Source of the DNA: Apostichopus japonicus
Taxonomy: Eukaryota > Echinodermata > Holothuroidea > Aspidochirotida > Stichopodidae
DNA: 64,000 nucleotides
Direction: 5' to 3'
NCBI RefSeq assembly: GCF_037975245.1
Contig: NC_092575.1
Coordinates: 27,925,841-27,989,840, forward strand
Shown: positions 4,203 through 62,406 of the stretch, in pieces
Position numbering within the stretch: the stretch's first letter is position 1
How the letters are laid out: every line of letters begins with the position of its first letter
Program-made: the position numbers and the translations under genes
The notes under the pieces: model-generated
Told to the model about the DNA's origin: nothing
The model's database searches: none
The model's input: only the letters and a program-made list of their open reading frames with translations

Positions 4203-7200
4203 GTGCCGAAGCACATATTTTCAAACTACTGTCTCCAACTTTCAATTGTTTCAAGCTACTATGTGACAAAAAGAAGTTCTCAAGATGAAGTTGCAGATCT
4301 GAAAGGACCAGTAATTTTACTAGGAAACCTTTCGACCACGTACACCTTTGAAGTAGGAAAGGATTACACAGTATTTGAATTCTTCATCGATCGGCTTAAA
4401 TTCTTAGCTTTATTCGTTGTATATCCATCTCTAGAAAACACATCACAGGTTCTACAAGGCTTTGTATTAAATTAGCTGAAACTCTATAGACCAGTCTTGC
4501 AATGTTTAAAGAAATGGCTCCTTACATAGTTGGCATGATTCAAATTCATCCAGTGCAAATTCATCCAGATGCAAATTCATCAATATTGGTCGAGAACTTG
4601 CTAGAACATTCAGTAGGTATATTCAAATTTACACAGTTGGCAATGAGGTGCCACATTAATCTCATATCAGACAGACAGGGAGATGGGTTAAACAAATAAC
4701 CCAAACCTGTACATCTATGTTACCCCCCTAACCTACAGCGAAAGTTTAGAATAATGAATGAAATTCATACTTCAACCAAAGCTAGTCATGTTTGTCAACA
4801 AAAGCGATAACTGGCATTTTGCATCAAATGAAAACCCTATTTCTCACCAGGCAAGTCATAACAGTAAGCTGTCTGAATTAGCATCTTCAGATCGAATATG
4901 GGTTTGCTGAGTTAGAGAGCAATATGTTCGAAGTTCAAGGATCAACCAATGAACACAATTTTAACATAAGAGGCAGAGATAAGACACTATAGCAGAAATC
5001 ATTATGTCTTCTTTCTGTTTATTACTGATAAATGCAAATATTTTCATTAAAAATCAATATGAAATTTTATGTTACTTTCAGAAATATATAAACAAAGCAA
5101 CTTCTACAACTTCAGCTCATTCACATTCATGCTATCAGCTAGAAAATTTACCATGAGACACATTTTCTATGAGGCATTGATGTGAATACCACTGACATAA
5201 CTTGTGCTATTCAAATGGATAAAGGGCTTGGTCAAGTCATGAATAAGGCTCTGCCCCATATATTGCACATGTTCAAAAAGGGTTACTGCTGTACATGCAA
5301 TACTTTTTAAATGGGGGAGAGTGGGGGGAGATGTAATAACATGTTGAAAAGACCACATCTTTTAATTTGTCATTTTTCTTTTGAACATATGCAAATGCTA
5401 GAAATGAAAGCGCTTGGAAATTTCTTGGGGAGATAGGCAGTTGTTGCCCTTGCACTGCTTTGAAGTCTGCACCACTGTAAATATTGTTGAAGGAGTGGAG
5501 TTCTGCAAATCTCTTGATATTCAAGAAATAAATTTTTCTTTTAGTGTTTGTTAAACAGCTCCTAGCAGTAATATGTATTTACACGACATTGTATCTGAGG
5601 TTCATTATGTAACCGGTGTTTTCTACATACAGTCAAATTAAAAACCAATGTTAAACTTGTTCACCTGCAATGGTCTAAATTCAGAAAGTACATCAATATC
5701 ATATCTCTTTTGCATATTGTATAACGTACTGAATTTTAAGTGGATTATATTTATCAATGAATATAGCAATGTTTTTGGTAAAAGCAATTAAAGCATCTAT
5801 TTGACCTTAATGTTTTCCTTGCATTGCTTGCTACTTCCTCCTATCTAGTTTCGAAAGGGAAATATAGATAAATGCTCAATACCTCAAACAACATTATTTA
5901 ATCTTGTTTCCCACAAAAAAATGTTCTGTCCCAGTTTCTGTAAACTACTCGGGATAAATGGAGGGGTGGGGGGGGGGGGGAGTTGGACAGGTTGGGAAAC
6001 TAAATATTTGACAGATGTTGTATTTGACAATAAAATTCACCTTCCCAAGAAAGTAATACAGTTCTTTAAGTGGCATTTTATGAAGGACCTATAGTATGTA
6101 ACGATAGCAGAATTGATTATTGCCTCCTGCTGAAATGTCCAATAAAGACTCACAGTATTGAAATGTTCATCAGATTCCTCATCTGTTTATTGAAACTTTC
6201 CTAGGATGTTGCCAACAAGATGCAGTTGAAGTCTACTGTACCTTGTTGTCAAAGGTGGAGCTCACAAAAAGTCCTATCAACTAGTCTTATTCAAGCAGTG
6301 GCAACATATGGGAAAAAAGAAAAGCAAAATATGGTACAATTTTGTTAATATTATTTTGAACTATTTATCCCAACACCTTATCCTCCTTTAAAGACTTTTG
6401 CAAGCTTGTAAACCAGTTACAGCACTCATGCAACATGATATGACAAAGGTTCATTGCCAGAACATGAAGCTAGCAATTTGGAGTAAATTTGTTTAAGAAT
6501 GATGAAGTTAAAACACTGCAATATTGAATGGGGCTCGAAAGGGCTTAAGAAGTCTTTTGAGGTACATTACTTGTTCTGATAAATATATTAATTGCCCTAA
6601 GGTTCAGCTATTAAATCAGCTACTAGTCAGATACTAGATAGTATGGGATCATGAAGGTTTTCAGATTTTACCTATATTGGCCTCAAATAACCTTTGACTT
6701 GGCTAAAAGCATTAGCTTGAACTCAGCACATGATACACCTGCATACAAACTTCCATTAATCATTCCAATATTGAACTATCATGTTAACAGTTTCAGATAT
6801 CTAGTTATCTCACATGGGCTTCTGCTATACTGTACAAATTTATAGAATAGTACTCAATGTCAGAAACCTATATGCACTACATATGACTACCAACTTTTCC
6901 GTGTTGAGTTAGATGCTCTATGTTACTCTACTGACCTTGAGTAGCCTTTGACCCTCAATGAAGCCAACACCTAATGAAAATTCCAGTATAAATATAAAAT
7001 TAATCAAATGATTCAGAAAATACTTAAACAGAAAGAAAAACTATTATAAACACTTGTGTTCATACTGACCTCAGCGTAAACAATTTAGAGACCAAGAACA
7101 TATGGTATAATAACTATTAGCTAACATTTCTTCCTTCTACTCTGCAATTTGGAGAGAACAATAAGCAAAATTGATACTGGCAAATGTAACATGGCAACAA

Positions 7201-53233: not shown

Positions 53234-53645
53234 GTTAATTAGCTGGACCATAACTTTTAATGTATGAAGTTAGAGCCGAAACAGTTTTGGGTTTGCTGTT
53301 TACAAGTTCTATGTCACTGCTGATATGAAAAAGTATCAGGGTGACAAAATGTTGAGAATCGAATCAAATATTTACATGAAATTCTTTCATCACAGTTACT
53401 GAACAGATACTTCTGTGGAAACATCAAAGACGATGTCGTAGTTTAAATTAAATACAAACTAACTTTGTCTATACTTATCAATGGTAATTGGTACAATTAT
53501 TAAAAATGATACGCAATGTTTTTTTTTTATACAGAAAACTGAGTATAAACTTAAACTAATATGTTCCATGGAAAAATGATCAGTCTTTCAGTTCATAAAT
53601 ATTCCTTCTAAAGAGTTATGTGTTCACAGAGAACAATCTTTTCTA

Positions 53646-56600
53646 CACTCTAAAAACACTTGGGTTAAAATTGACCCAAATTGGGTCACTTTTTGACCCA
53701 AATGAAAGTCAGGAGGGAACCTAACACATTTGGGTCAAACTGACCCAGAAAATTAGGTCAGAATAAGTGACCCAATTTATGGGTTGTAAATTTGACCCAG
53801 AAATATTGGTAAATATTGACCCCGGCAAGGGTTATGATGGAAATCAACCACATTTGGGTCAGCTTGACTCTTATAGGAAAAAATACATAAATACAAAAGG
53901 CTTCATTTGACAATGCAATTTATTGATGTAACTCCTTCAAAGAAAGTGAACTGCTGAAAAACTGCTAAAAACTAATGTAAAATTGCAACAAAACTGAATG
54001 TTTCATTAATATGGTACCATAGCACAAGATCTAAAGGAAGGAATTGTTTGAAGCATTACCAATTAATCAAAAATGTTTTTTACCCCAGTGCAATTTTTAC
54101 ATAAACAATTTCAACATTTTATTAGACTTGTATGGATAAAATACAATTTGCTGAATGAATGAACGAACACTTTCTAGCTAGACATGTGTGTGTCTTCATA
54201 ATGATATTTATCAGCTAGAGCATAGACTAGCTCGCATGGGGAAGTATTTGCCTTACTTACGATGTAATAACAAAAGAAGAAAATGACAACCAAAACATGG
54301 TTGCCAATTTTTAAAAGATGGGGTGCTGGATGGTCAGTCTTGAAAATGTTCACTAAATTAGGCCTCGTAAAGAAGATTCCCCTCCCCCCCCCCCTTTTTA
54401 ACACTTATCCATGGATTTCATTAAACGGCGGCAAGCCTTTAAGTAATGAGTCCATATATTATGTGTAATATTTATACTGCTGTTGTACATAACCCAGCAC
54501 GGGTAAATATTATATATGTAAATATGTGTAGAATGGATACACATATTTCTGTATTCCAAGAGCCGTTCAATTGAAAATAGTCCAAGCAATTTATTTAGAG
54601 CAGATAACTGGGACTGGGACAATCCATATAATTTGCTTCTAAAATTTCATGACAGCAAAATATTTGTGAGCTGCAACTTTGGAACTGGAATTTATGAGAT
54701 GAAAACAAATATGATCATACAGGCTGAAAACGTTTTGCCAATTCTTCTTAGAATACAAGCATATCTTTGCTTTGTATATGAGGCAAGTATGCCTTGGTCC
54801 CATAAACGTGATTCAACTAACAGTTGAGATTTCAACTAAAATCACACAACTTCAGATGATAATAAAGATTGCTCGGCATTGAACAAAATTGTGTCCAAAT
54901 TCTTTCAACTGTCATGTAAAAAGGAGTTGTAATGGACAGTTGAATCGATCGCCAAGTTAATTCTAGTGTTGCACTGTGCGAATAGGTCTGAAAATTTTCA
55001 GCCCTACTTCCTTCCGACTTTCAAATATGTCTTCAATGACACAACTGAAGATGACATTTTCCCAGGTAAGTTGTATACAACAGTCTGGAGGAACTGCCAG
55101 GTGTTGTATGATTGCCATTGATAATTCATATCAAAAACATGAAAACATTTAAAACATAAATCAATGGCATTAAGCAGCGACTCCTGTGGAATGGCTTCTC
55201 TCTCTATGATTATGTACGTTTGTTCCGGGCTAACCCTGCTGCTTCCAATAGCTAGAACGAATGGTTGCTTTTGTTTCACCCCTTCAAGGTAGTGTGGAAT
55301 ATTGGTTCCAATCTGAAATGAAAAAGAAAAGGTTATGGAAGCAAACTTCTTAGATTTATTCAAATGCTGCCTTCCATATAGAAAGGATCATATATTGCAG
55401 TACTCCCCAGAAGGCAGGTTGATAGAAGCAATCTTTGTTTTGATTAAGGATGTGCAGTATTTAGCATTTCACAACTTCAGTGATGAATAGTGCCACAATT
55501 TCATAGTGGGTTTTAGAGGTGCCAGGTAGGAATTGTCGGGTCTCTGTAAGTTATTTTGAGGCTCATCTAGGAACCCTTGACAATTGATTATGGATGAACA
55601 CAGTGTTCAGAAGTTAACAAGACACTTATACTATCACACCATACTGCCTGGAATACCACAATGTCCTATCCAATCGGTGTGAATTAGATTGTACACTCTT
55701 CTACTGCACATTCAACATATTCTGCATTCACATTTATATGTATTCATATATCATGTGTATACTGGAATGAAGAAATCATTGTTACAACTCTACCTGTAAT
55801 AAATTTGGTTAAGGGTTTGTACAATGCAACCTGGTGCAGTGGTAGTGGGTTATGGTTCCACAATTTCTGGGGCTGGTGAGGTTCTTCAGGCATTTGATTG
55901 GCACAGCTGCAGAGCATTAGTGACCGATGCTTTGATAGTCCCCTTCCACCATTCCCCTTGGGAAAGTGGCTGAATGCATCGTTCATGTCTTTCAGATGGG
56001 AACATAAAATGGTGGTTCTAGGAGCAGGGTAGGATTGTATCTGATGAATGTCTTGTCTCACCAATCGATGTACACTGCTCGCGAAGAGAAGGCAAGCTCT
56101 TTGCCTGTTTCATCCATAATTTTATCGTCTGTCAATTTTCCTAGATGAACCTGTAACCGACGATGATCTTATAAAAGGAATTTTTCTACTTCAAATTTAG
56201 CTTTCAGCTCACCTTTTGCAAATCTACAAATGAAGTGAGGGCATCTTCAATTGTAGCCCGTTTTCCTTTGCCCTTTATCTTCTGTGACCCAACAGGTAGA
56301 ATGCATGGAATACACTGCAGTGCAATGTTGCATACTTCATCATCTGTAAAGAGGAAAAATAAGAACCTTGGGGAAAGATTCACAGACTTAACACTCATGA
56401 AGGCACTGATTATGCCCGTGTTATAAGGTAACACATTTGTGGGAATATATGATGATATATCAGTTAAAAAATGTCTTTCAGTGGAACAATATGCATTATA
56501 TAGTGTGGATAGGATCTCTGACGGCTCTACAAATCCACCAATTTCTCAACAGCATCTCTGATTGTGATCCAAAGTTGGGTGGATGCCAGGCCAATGAATG

Positions 56601-59600
56601 TTCGTCGATGAAGCAATACAATATTACCAGAATTCTGATGCGAGAATAGAAAACATTTGTAGCTTATAACAAATCCGATGTCATCTATGTTGACTGTGCA
56701 GGGTTGTGCCCATGCCAGACCATTGTGTACTGAAATATGGCAATCAGGCATAATACTTGACACTATTCTGTTGCCTGACCACCTTAATCCCCTGACTGAC
56801 TCCCTCCTCCAAATACACACCATTTTCATTATTTCCCCTGACTGAGGTGAAGCTCAACTGGGGGCCAATTGAAACATCACTGGCAGTGCCACATGAAAAC
56901 AGTTCACATGCATTTTACCTGGGTTAATAAGTTATTGCAACTTAGTTACCTGATAGTTGACTGCTGTCTTGAACAATCCCCAGGTGTCGAGACCAATCAT
57001 TTTGCTTGTCAGCATAATGCAGTAGGTTCCTAGCGACTGCAGGTGTCCATAACAGGAACAATTTGTCCCCACACTTTGGCTTGATGACTTCAAAGTCCAG
57101 ATTAATCTGAAAAAGGATGAAATATGTGACAAGTCTGCACAGAAAGCATTTTTTTGTACCCAGACTTGGACTGTGAACAGAGCTGCAAAATAGTCTTGGA
57201 GGACCATCCAACCAAACTGATGTAGATGTCCCATATCCTGGCACTGAGGTGAATTCTTTTTGCTGGCTACTGCTACAGAGCATAAGACCATATCATCTCA
57301 GATGTTTTGTTTAACTAGAGATACAGGAGTAACGTGATGCTCTTGAAAATGCAACTGAGAGTACATATCCCACAAAGCATACCAAATATTTGTTTGCATC
57401 GATTTGAACAAAATCTTCCATTTTGCTAAAGCAAACTATGAACAAAAAAATGAAATTATACAGCAGGTATTATGCCTTTTTTTATTTTTGCGTTGTGCTT
57501 ATAATTCTGCCCTTCCTGAGAACAAAAACAGTAAACCATTGAGTTAACTGATCCCTTTTTTGTTTTTACACTTCATCGTACCATTAGCTCACCGACAAAG
57601 TTGGATGTATTCCCAGAGGGGGTGTCTTTCGAGTATTGACAGAGGCCATTTATTCTTGCCCTATCCTTGATCTGAAGGTACGAGCAGATTTCCTCGCTGA
57701 TTTCTTGTCTCACACATGAGAAGACCTACAAATGAAATTTGCCTGCTTATTACCCTAAGCTTGCCACATCACAGAATAAAACAACTATCTAAATAAAACC
57801 CACCAGTCCTGAAGTGTCCAGTAGTCTAGGATATTTCGCAAAGATGGCGACGCCCTCTGGATTTTCTCTAATCCACATGAGCCTGGACTTCGCTGTTTTT
57901 TGGTGGTATTCTCTGACTTTACCCAGAGGTTCTTTATTGTGTTTCATCCACTGTACCATCGCCTCAATGGCAGCAGGTTCGATGTCATCTGGAAAAGTTA
58001 ACAATAATTGCCCTATGAAGAATGGATATACCAAGGAATCATGACAAAGATATTGTTCTAAATGTGAATTCTGAAAATCTGCACATTACAAAGGAGATGA
58101 AAAGGTATGCCAGGAATGAACATCCTATGCATGATATGTAATTTCTTCTTACTCTTGTTAACATTTCAAATGTTAACTTAAAAAAAAACACATAAAAATA
58201 CCTTCATCACTCTCCAGACTACTGACTGATGAAGCTGTGGAGTCAGAGTTTGTTTTGTTGGCCTTCCGAATGCTCACATGATTCTTCTTTGCTGTTCTCT
58301 TCCTCACATTCCTGAGTCTTTCTTCCAAATAACCTGTAGCTGCATGCTGTCCAATGCTAGAAGTGTACCAAGCTTCCTGTGAAAACAACCAATGAAGGTA
58401 AAATGTTTTGCCTAAGGACACATGGTCAGAACTCAAACTCCCGATCCTAAAACTACTCAGCAGTTATGAATAATGAGCACCTAGCTATATGCTCATAACA
58501 GAAAGTCAATGTAAATGATGATTTCGCCCCGATTCATTTTGGTTTGAGGCAGACTGTATCGTGACCGGACACCTCCCCCGGACAGTGGGGAATGCCCGGG
58601 GGGGGGGAATTGTCCGGGTGGGGAATTGATGCGGGGTGAGATGTCCTAGAACCGAATGTAATCCCATCCATACGACCTGACACATCTATAATCAATGTTC
58701 TCTAGCTTCCAGCAAACAAATCATGAAACCAAATTGAACATTCAACTGAGAACTCACCAATCACATCAGAGCTGAAATTATTTAGTGAAAATAAAATGAC
58801 AGTATTTTTTAATGAGCCAAGTTGAGGGGGCACATTCCTCCTCATCTCAAATGCATATGATCACATGGGCCGGGAGAGAACAATCTCCATGTTTCTCAGA
58901 GTAAATCAATTCATTTCTTGATGTTCCCAGTTTATGCCAAATATATATTTGTCAAAGCTATTTCATTGACCCACTGACTTAAAACGAAGGGTTTTCTGTA
59001 TATGGTATATAGGCTACTTGGATAACATGTTGACAATTAAAAAGAATGGTAGTATCCAACTGGCAACAGCCATCCTTCTACATTTTAAAAACGTAATCCA
59101 AAAAAAGAAGTGATCTAACATGACAAAAATTGATACTAACATAACCATCTCCATCTTCTCCCTTCAGTTTGGGAAACTCATTTACAATGGATCTTGCAAG
59201 AGCCTCTTTTACATGGGATGTGGGCCTGAAATATAAACAATTTTGTGTAAAATAATGAGTTGCTAAATAAAAGTAAACATTGTGAAAACTAAAAATGTTT
59301 GTTCACCACTGGTCACCACTAATTCTCAAAGACATAGAATTCAAATCACCTATGCTATGAACAAATAAGATCTGTTAGGCCTACTTATTTTCAACCATAA
59401 TATATGCAAAACGGGCTGTTTTTTTTCACATCTTGACCAAAAAGACCTAACATTCTAGGCTAGGCCTAAATGTTAATTTTGTATGAAAATTCAAAATTTT
59501 CATTGCCAAGAAATTTTTAAATGAAATTGTTGTAAATTTATTCCAAGTTCTGCCTCTTGTTTGGTCTTCTTTGTCTTTTTTTTGGTAGGCCTAGGCCTAG

Positions 59601-60754
59601 TCTGATAAGCTATGTTAGTAAACTTACTGCTTAATCAGATGTAACATTAGGCCTAGGCTACAGTAGGTCTAGGCTAGGCAAAGCTATTTTTGTTATTTAG
59701 GCCTAGGCCTACAGTAACCCTAAAATTCTGGTAAAAACGCTGATGTTTTTTTTTGGTCACTGGGGCTTGTTCCATAACTAGGCCTAACGTTAGGCCTATA
59801 ACACTATGCGCAGTAGTGCCTAGCCTAGGCCTAACATTAGGCTACTGTAGGCCTACGACATTACGCATATTCCAAATGTTTCACACTTCAGTAGCTGCCC
59901 TGTGTGTACAAAAAAACCCACTCCATTAGCATGTCTAAATCTAGCCGTCATGCTCATGATCGCTGACCCTCATGATCGCAAATAGGCCTCGCCTAGGGGC
60001 CTAGGCCTCATCATATTTACTTACCAAACTTGGCACAACATTGCTTAGGCCTAGGCCCTAGGCTACTTATGCATTGTCAACAATGCTTACTTATGCAGTT
60101 GTGCATCGTCATATTTATTTTAAATATACAGTTCAATTAGGATTGTGGATTTATCTATCAGATACTAGAGGTTCCGTACATGTATACATCATCTCAATCT
60201 CAACTGCAATAGTGTACTCTTTACAGGCCTAGCCTATGTTATGGCTTAGCGTTAGGCTATAGGCTAGTACGACTACGAATTAGTCACCGACTTAGCCATA
60301 CGTTAAGTCTTCGTATGCTACTTCAGCATTTCTTGAAATTTAATTACATATTAAAAAAGATATTTGCACATGATACCATACCTTGAAATGAATTAGCCCA
60401 TTCCATCAAGCCCCATTCTTCTAATTTATCTTTCACGAACGAATCCATTTGTGCTTCTGATCATGTTCGCTCTGTCAGCAAACTTGTTCTACAGCCAATT
60501 TGTCTATGGCGCGCGCGCAGGGCCAATATGATCGGACGGTCAATGTGTGTTCGTTGATTGGCTGATCTGACATGGTGCACTCATATTCCTATAATGTTGA
60601 CCAATCATAGTCCAATATTATTTTGACTCGTTGATGAAAGTCAGTTTCGGACTTAGCATTAGGTCAGCTTAGTGTATGGTACAACCCAAATTGGGTTATA
60701 AGACCATCGACCCTGCGTTTGGGTCATGAATATGACCCAGGTGTTTTAAGAGTG
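53646..60754. mobile_element. 7.1-kb TIR element (CACTC ends) enclosing a SAMD3-like gene
   Basis: The left end reads CACTCTAAAAACACTTGGGT. The right end in reverse reads CACTCTTAAAACACCTGGGT. Possible 2-bp TA duplications flank it (53644-53645, 60755-60756). Inside the left end, TGGGTCA/TGACCCA motifs recur about ten times to 53865, and several occur inside the right end (60687-60740). CACT-initial ends, a short target duplication and subterminal repeats fit the CACTA (EnSpm) superfamily, though a Tc1-like TA target is not excluded. I see no recognisable CACTA transposase. The only gene found is the spliced SAMD3-like gene, whose start codon lies 306 bp from the right end and whose stop lies about 1.36 kb from the left end. 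Duplicate A lacks the whole element. Confidence 0.75.
55004..60448 (-). CDS. Spliced SAMD3-like protein gene (SAM domain plus conserved C-terminal region)
   Basis: Exons traced on the minus strand: 60448-60382 (MDSFVKDKLEEWGLMEWANS, start of a SAM domain, donor GTATGG); 59225-59141 (HVKEALARSIVNEFPKLKG); 58376-58202 (EAWYTSSIGQHAATGYLEER, basic and Ser-rich); 57988-57804 (IEAMVQWMKHNKE and MWIRENPEGVAIFAKYPRLL); 57725-57593 (VFSCVRQEISEEICSYLQ); 57106-56950 (INLDFEVIKPKCGDKLF); 56343-56213 (EVCNIALQCIPCILP); 55312-55004 (QPFVLAIGSSRVSPEQTYII to a stop). Five junctions join in phase with GT/AG sites: 59141/58376, 58202/57988, 57804/57725, 56950/56343 and 56213/55312. Exon 1 (phase 1) does not join directly to the second, so one or more exons completing the SAM domain are missing. 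The 57593/57106 junction is also unresolved. The ILE-rich tail, VIERxAxPQ and FLQTVVY motifs are typical of SAMD3-like proteins, whose molecular function I do not know. The upstream region is TAGGCCTA-rich. Confidence 0.75.
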
Positions 60755-60954
60755 TATAAAACGCTCTATTGTTGGTGAATGGTGACTCCTTCTTACCGTG
60801 AATGTTCATTCCGACTATACTACGTTAATATCCGCAAATATCACACGCACGTACGCACACGCACGCACACACGCACACACCCACACAGCAAAGCTAATAC
60901 AAACGATTTGAGTAGTTCTTTTCCGCCAAACTTAGATGTACAGCATGTATCGAT
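60755..60954. other. Linker with (CA)n microsatellite
   Basis: The stretch between the TIR element and satellite B contains a CACACG-type run at 60840-60886. Copy A has no counterpart; there the satellite starts almost directly. Confidence 0.7.
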
Positions 60955-62406
60955 AGTACATTAGAGAGAAGAACATTACCTTACAATATGTCTATTAGTA
61001 TACAGTACATTAGAAAGAAGAACATTACCTTACAGTTTGTCTATTAGTATATACAGTACATTAGAAAGAAGAACATTACCTTACAGTATGTCTATTAGTA
61101 TACAGTACATTTGAAAGAAGAACATTACCTTACAGTTTGTCTATTGGTATACAGTACATTAGAAAGAAGAACATTACCTTACAGTTTGTCTATTCGTATA
61201 CAGAACATTAGAAAGAAGAACATTACCTCACAGTTTGTCTATTGGTATACAGTACATTTGAAAGAAGAACATTACCTTACAATATGTATATTAGTATATA
61301 TATATATATATACAGTACATTAGAAAGAAGAACATTACCTCACAGTTTGTCTATTAGTATATACATTAGAAAGAAGAACATTACCTCACAGTTTGTCTAT
61401 TAGTATATAGTACATTAGAAAGAAGAACATTACCTCACACTGTGTCTATTAGTATATAGTACATTAGAAAGAAGAACATTACCTTACAGTTTGTCTATTG
61501 GTATACAGTACATTAGAAAGAAGAACATTACCTTACAGTTTGTCTATTAGTATATACAGTACATTAGAAAGAAGAACATTACCTTACAGTATGTCTATTA
61601 GTATACAGTACATTTGAAAGAAGAACATTACCTTACAGTTTGTCTATTGGTATACAGTACATTAGAAAGAAGAACATTACCTTACAGTTTGTCTATTCGT
61701 ATACAGAACATTAGAAAGAAGAACATTACCTTACAGTTTGTCTATTCGTATACAGAACATTAGAAAGAAGAACATTACCTTACAGTTTGTCTATTCGTAT
61801 ACAGTACATTTGAAAGAAGAACATTACCTTACAATATGTATATTAGTATATATATATATATATATACAGTACATTAGAAAGAAGAACATTACCTCACAGT
61901 TTGTCTATTAGTATATACATTAGAAAGAAGAACATTACCTCACAGTTTGTCTATTAGTATATAGTACATTAGAAAGAAGAACATTACCTCACACTGTGTC
62001 TATTAGTATATAGTACATTAGAAAGAAGAACATTACCTTACAGTTTGTCTATTGGTATACAGTACATTAGAAAGAAGAACATTACCTCACAGTTTGTCTA
62101 TTAGTATATAGTACATTAGAAAGAAGAACATTACCTCACACTGTGTCTATTAGTATATAGTACATTAGAAAGAAGAACATTACCTTACAGTTTGTCTATT
62201 GGTATACAGTACATTTGAAAGAAGAACATTACCTTACAATATGTATATTAGTATATATATATATATACAGTACATTAGAAAGAAGAACATTACCTCACAG
62301 TTTGTCTATTAGTATATAGTACATTAGAAAGAAGAACATTACCTCACAGTTTGTCTATTAGTATATAGTACATTAGAAAGAAGAACATTACCTTACAGTT
62401 TGTATA
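60955..62406. repeat. 49-bp satellite array B, about 28 units
   Basis: It is the same unit as 21245-24643. A variant with TACAATATGTATATTAGTATATATATATA recurs at about 61275, 61829 and 62230. The first two are about 554 bp apart within a larger repeated block, which shows duplication of multi-unit segments. This variant is absent from array A, so the two arrays have evolved separately. Confidence 0.95.

Follow-up and report, generated by a model that had tools for sequence, protein, structure and literature searches.

A SAMD3-like gene inside a CACTA-like transposon of the sea cucumber Apostichopus japonicus, and its probable pairing with a RAG1-type transposase

The En/Spm element of maize carries large open reading frames (ORFs) inside an intron of tnpA, makes a 3-bp target duplication on insertion, and has deleted, non-autonomous relatives in the defective Spm elements. 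In the available part of PMC1636069, En/Spm is described as one alternatively spliced unit whose two proteins are both needed for transposition, and the animal elements SmTRC1 and TRC as CACTA relatives with a Transposase_21 domain, 2-bp duplications and several spliced transcripts; most TRC expressed sequence tags are without the transposase ORF, and conservation is undetectable outside the transposase domain. CACTA elements of animals, and the fact that they are alternatively spliced, are already known (PMC1636069). The fungal elements ESTA, Plavaka and EnSpm belong to the CMCT group; they have the motifs C(2)C and H(3-4)H, and some of them carry an extra gene (PMC12730594, in the portion available). 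Here we describe an element at positions 53646 to 60754 of a 64,000-nucleotide stretch of Apostichopus japonicus DNA (contig NC_092575.1, positions 27,925,841 to 27,989,840; “the window”) that contains exons of a SAMD3-like gene. This element is very probably a non-autonomous, internally deleted cut-and-paste copy of the CACTA-like (EnSpm/CMC) group, the full form of which pairs a RAG1-type DDE transposase with a SAMD3-like second protein.

The element runs from its left tip, CACTCTAAAAACACTTGGG, which starts at 53646, to an imperfect inverse of that tip, CACTCTTAAAACACCTGGG, which stops at 60754; 18 of the first 20 positions agree. The terminal inverted repeats (TIRs) are CACTCTAAAAACACTT (53646 to 53661, plus strand) and CACTCTTAAAACACCT (60739 to 60754, minus-strand reading), and a TA target-site duplication lies directly outside each of them (53644 to 53645 and 60755 to 60756). 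The subterminal motif TGGGTCA occurs eight times, in both orientations, in a left array (53672 to 53861) and twice at the right (60720 to 60739), giving 10 over the outermost 2 x 300 bp versus 2 over 6503 interior positions; the whole window holds 16, whereas 100 shuffles averaged 7.72 and only one of them reached 16 or more. The inverted CACTC-type ends and dense TGGGTCA motifs reported in the original prediction, which was made from the letters alone, are thus exact to the base in the one case and confirmed by count in the other.

A search of the animal's own genome (671.6 Mb) for both ends returned 27 left and 28 right matches; 25 of the 27 left ends were paired with a properly oriented right end within 20 kb, forming elements of 0.2 to 13.5 kb, and the two unpaired ones were partial matches. 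Of the copies, 24 exceed 4 kb. We fetched 20 genomic copies for comparison with the window. Five (L009-L013), all on other chromosomes, were 99.4-100% identical to it over the aligned parts, two more (L014 and L015) about 94.6-97.8%, and the remaining 13 were more diverged or rearranged, mostly about 90% identical in the left half. Such near-identical copies point to recent movement and also make the element testable in cells. Leaving out the six fetched copies in which the right end was unreadable, all 15 copies readable at both ends, the window included, had a matching 2-bp flank (TA in 12, TG in 2, CA in 1); the longest exact flank repeat was 2 bp in 14 of them and 4 bp in the C21 copy, so that we take the duplication to be 2 bp and TA to be the target preference. 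The possibility raised with the prediction, that SAMD3-like genes elsewhere might never be flanked by these ends, did not hold up: SAMD3-like exons lie between the same ends in many copies, and these data support the gene as part of one recently mobile TIR element.

The SAMD3-like exons of the window lie on the minus strand between 55004 and 60448, with exon 1 about 300 bp inside the right end. Exon mapping places exon 1, which supplies the start codon and (by Pfam) the first half of a SAM domain, at 60382 to 60448, and exons 5, 6, 7, 9 and 10 at 59141 to 59225, 58202 to 58376, 57804 to 57988, 56950 to 57106 and 56213 to 56343, respectively; the last exon (exon 11 of our first model) is at 55004 to 55312 and matches NCBI model P0001. 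An open stretch at 57582 to 57725, also on the minus strand, was initially taken as exon 8 of an 11-exon, 553-amino-acid model; it is skipped by P0001 and the other homologues, is probably intronic and was dropped, so the gene is counted here as 10 exons and about 505 amino acids. Relative to the C21 copy, 6.4 kb is gone from the window between 59351 and 59353, precisely where C21 has the second half of the SAM domain, a transposase ORF, and exons 3 and 4. The window gene is without these three exons, and the exons left to it cannot be joined in frame because of this deletion (joining exon 1 to exon 5 breaks the frame at once). Thus, the spliced SAMD3-like gene of the prediction is there, with exon 1 near the right end, but only as a remnant, and the “autonomous” layout proposed for this copy does not stand, since its transposase has been deleted.

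The C21 and C20 copies track the window up to 59351 (99.7 and 99.8% identity, respectively) and then continue into different sequence. Four other copies (C21, C8, C20 and C9) carry the transposase, in C21 at the exact place of the window deletion. C21 retains both genes whole, and C20 does so in its known parts (exons 3-11 and the ORF, by search); in C8 and C9 the transposase is present and SAMD3-like exons 6-8 are absent, while in C16 and C17 about 2 kb with no transposase match replaces the transposase region. A 209-bp copy at C19:25596744-25596953 consists of the two ends only, in the manner of a miniature inverted-repeat transposable element.

The full element (C21) is 13.5 kb long, and its minus strand has an open frame of 840 codons (836 amino acids from the first ATG) lying in the second intron of the SAMD3-like gene, between SAM exon 2 and exon 3. 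This ORF is unbroken at three of the four family loci (C21, C8 and C20) and split in two in C9. A structure model of the protein shows a RAG1 fold over about 460 residues, at a sequence identity of about 12%. The predicted DDE residues, D305, D399 and E651, together with C419-C422 and H627-H631, are kept in 47-48 of 48 homologues, and their conservation, spacing and fold argue that the triad is catalytic; the C(2)C and H(3-4)H motifs, as defined in the available part of PMC12730594, are present between the second D and the E. Zinc-finger-like Cys/His pairs are likewise kept in 45-48 of the 48, and nine of these homologues match the Pfam family Transposase_21 at E<=0.01 (best 1.9e-5). In model m3888c4873179, residues 695-830 form a C-terminal BAH-like fold, possibly a chromatin reader on a CACTA-group transposase.

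In the C21 copy, the internal junctions of the SAMD3-like exons are GT/AG with agreeing phases, and splicing over the transposase ORF is supported by NCBI model P0001. Once exons 1 and 2 are included, the protein begins with a SAM domain followed by a conserved core; SAM_1 is its only Pfam domain, and no Pfam family matched the core. Vertebrates possess a gene named SAMD3, and two fish relatives (P0004 and P0174) bear its name in UniRef; of the 11 homologues found at E<=0.001, one is named after a sterile alpha motif domain-containing protein and the others are uncharacterised or unnamed. Our structure model P0136 (predicted local distance difference test score, pLDDT, 82.0; predicted template modelling score, pTM, 0.64) had credible matches among solved structures (Foldseek, VIA) only in the SAM domain, including those of tankyrase and polyhomeotic, which are polymer-forming, and no sign of an RNase H-like core was seen among these matches. 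The prediction had offered this protein as an undescribed transposase or a helper; the fold evidence takes away the first half, the DDE core being in the neighboring ORF, and the second half survives.

The pairing extends well beyond the window family. At least 212 merged last-exon loci were found with SAMD3-like queries in the own genome, and as a sample of transposase loci, 54 of 405 candidates were scored (56 rows, merged to 52 loci). Counting the last SAMD3 exon only, with rows for other exons left out, we found one within 16 kb of 36 of the 52 transposase loci, where 0.53 would be expected by chance; it was on the same strand in 36 of 36, downstream in 32 and upstream in 4, and the paired transposases were 34-100% identical to that of the window family. 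The C7 family (transposase 44-46% identical), read whole, has ends TACACTCTAAAAA and, on one strand, SAM exon 1, SAM exon 2, the transposase, and the SAMD3 exons through to the last, so that in C21 and C7 copies alike the transposase ORF is inside an intron of the second gene on the same strand. In the C1 family (36% identical) the ends, CACTCTAAAAACTAAAGTGCTG, are perfect over 22 bp, and SAMD3 exons lie downstream. At C2 (29% identical), one of the loci unpaired in the count, a profile finds two downstream same-strand SAMD3 exons (E 7e-4 and 3.5e-3), and at E<=0.1 none of the four loci scanned by profile had a SAMD3 match on the opposite strand. The window, C21, C7 and C1 elements have CACTCTAAAAA or CACTCTTAAAA as their tips, beginning CAC and ending GTG, with C and not A as the fifth base; CACTCTAAAAA is common to the three families with known ends, and CACTCTTAAAA is the right end of the window family. 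Flanks of the C7 and C1 copies are TA. A different subterminal word, present in both orientations, marks each of the three families with known ends; counts over 2 x 300 bp of terminal sequence are 10 for TGGGTCA, 12 for TCCTGGT and 12 for AAGTGCT, with 1-4 in the interiors.

Outside the sea cucumber, 215 proteins were fetched; the SAMD3 profile matched 101 of them and the transposase profile 130, with 16 matching both. Transposase and SAMD3 core are joined in 14 proteins (Holothuria 2, Lineus 1, Nymphon 1, fish 10), and SAM domain and transposase in two (Folsomia P0120, and P0076); in all 16 the parts present follow the order SAM, transposase, core. Taken together, these observations suggest a widespread family of animal transposons whose second protein is SAMD3-like. 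We hold more tentatively, at somewhat less than even confidence, that RAG1-fold CACTA elements form a superfamily spanning the Bilateria in which the SAMD3-like protein is the obligate second subunit, and that vertebrate SAMD3 is a domesticated copy.

The element and its full-length relatives show features of the CACTA/EnSpm (CMC(T)) group: short CAC..GTG TIRs, a target duplication in the 2- to 3-bp range, a DDE core bearing the C(2)C and H(3-4)H motifs, and subterminal repeats in two orientations. With maize En/Spm the element shares the CAC..GTG ends, the two-orientation repeats and the same nested plan, a transposase ORF in an intron of the second gene; it differs in its CACTC rather than CACTA ends, its SAM/SAMD3-like second protein, and a duplication of 2 bp instead of 3 bp. 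RAG1, ProtoRAG (BbRAGL) and Transib resemble it in the RAG1 fold, the DDE residues and the C(2)C and H(3)H spacing, and RAG1/RAG2 is a two-protein system too. However, RAG transposons duplicate 5 bp of target, which none of our flanks shows, and no RAG2-like partner turned up, although no search was aimed at one. SmTRC1 and TRC have CCC ends, unlike the CACTC of the sea cucumber element, and the part of their account available names no SAM or SAMD3-like protein (PMC1636069). Fungal ESTA duplicates TA, as here, whereas the extra gene of the fungal elements encodes a TET/JBP dioxygenase, a SAMD3-like gene being unmentioned in the portion of that source available (PMC12730594).

In our reading, the full element would be a single transcription unit starting near the right end, in which splicing past the transposase ORF or retaining it would decide which protein is made. 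The transposase, with its zinc-finger, RAG1-type DDE and BAH-like parts, would cut the CACTC ends, as expected for its group. The SAMD3-like protein, by analogy with maize, may be a TNPA-like second element protein that assembles the ends via the subterminal repeats peculiar to each family (perhaps through contacts between SAM domains), regulates the element, or both; the transposase's own fingers may read the subterminal words instead. The window copy would presumably move only with proteins supplied by other copies.

Several observations weigh against this reading. Both Pfam assignments fall below their cut-offs, the 836-amino-acid protein scoring 14.6 bits against 28.6 for Transposase_21 and the SAMD3-like protein 21.0 bits against 23 for SAM_1 (E 4.5e-4). 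The transposase ATG lies about 50 bases beyond the donor site of SAM exon 2, from which inspection of the C21 copy by eye showed no in-frame splice into the transposase. With the queries used, no SAMD3 exon was found at 16 of the 52 transposase loci, SAM exons were not detected in two of the four families scanned (C1 and C2), and a pattern search found no ends for C2. The joined proteins come from gene prediction, and annotators may have fused them, although only neighboring genes could be fused. At four loci (C5:10757427, C12:19953591, C7:4675944 and C17:3554956) the last SAMD3 exon lies on the strand of the transposase match and upstream of it, by 51 bases at C5 and C12, 511 at C7 and 831 at C17, the matches at C7 and C17 beginning at query residues 170 and 271; this is a variant gene order.

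Other explanations were also weighed. The most serious is that the SAMD3-like protein is encoded by the element and stands outside the transposition machinery, as an anti-silencing or host-interaction factor or as a repressor made from deleted copies. The same anatomy fits; Pfam shows no DNA-binding domain in the protein, the conserved Cys/His pairs of the transposase could read the subterminal repeats, and plant TNPA also affects promoter methylation (PMC1636069, in the part available), and we consider this role less likely than not. That the gene was captured from a host and travels as cargo, as in Pack-type elements, was the other option of the original prediction; SAM is a common host domain, and the name SAMD3 belongs to a vertebrate gene and to the two fish relatives. 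A late capture would predict a family-specific gene in random orientation, whereas this one accompanies transposases just 34-52% identical (29% by profile at C2), always on the same strand, encloses the transposase in an intron in two families 44-46% identical, and keeps one gene order in gene models of several phyla. Capture fits poorly with a gene pair common to such diverged families and phyla, and we regard it as improbable.

It is still less probable, and in our estimation very improbable, that the SAMD3-like protein alone is the transposase and the neighboring ORF incidental; its exons are the sole recognised coding sequence in the window copy, but the DDE core lies in that ORF. Finally, the prediction allowed that the ends might belong to two small elements flanking a host gene by chance, for which the ends-only C19 copy could be a precedent. 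We rejected this, at a probability close to nil, on the pairing of left and right ends and the duplications on the outer flanks in all 15 readable copies; the interior, moreover, recurs on other chromosomes in the five near-identical copies.

In the open-access literature searched, we found no paper that connects transposons of this kind with SAMD3 or a SAM domain, though subscription papers or Repbase reports may hold earlier notice. Our reading gives an identity to “uncharacterised” and SAMD3-like proteins annotated in fish and echinoderms: many of them, at least, would be transposon genes, which bears on gene counts and on where vertebrate SAMD3 came from. Animals would have a counterpart to the nested two-gene plan of maize Spm, with a different-looking partner and a RAG1-shaped transposase ending in a chromatin-reader-like BAH fold. 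If true, a domesticated SAMD3 would be a second case, beside RAG1/RAG2, of a host gene descended from a transposon that has two genes, one of them for a RAG1-type transposase.

Some minor sequence features accompany the element. Dense TAGGCCTA repeats occupy 59580-60060 of the window, in the intron after exon 1, and AGGCCTA is frequent inside the C1 element too. Just outside the element, at about 60940-61200, there is by eye a tandem repeat with a unit of about 60 bp (AGTACATTAGAAAGAAGAACATTACC...). In copy L018, near-copies of the left tip (CTCTCTTAAAACAC and CACTGTAAAAACAC) occur just outside the element at minus-strand positions 6089 and 6237, perhaps from a related element nearby.
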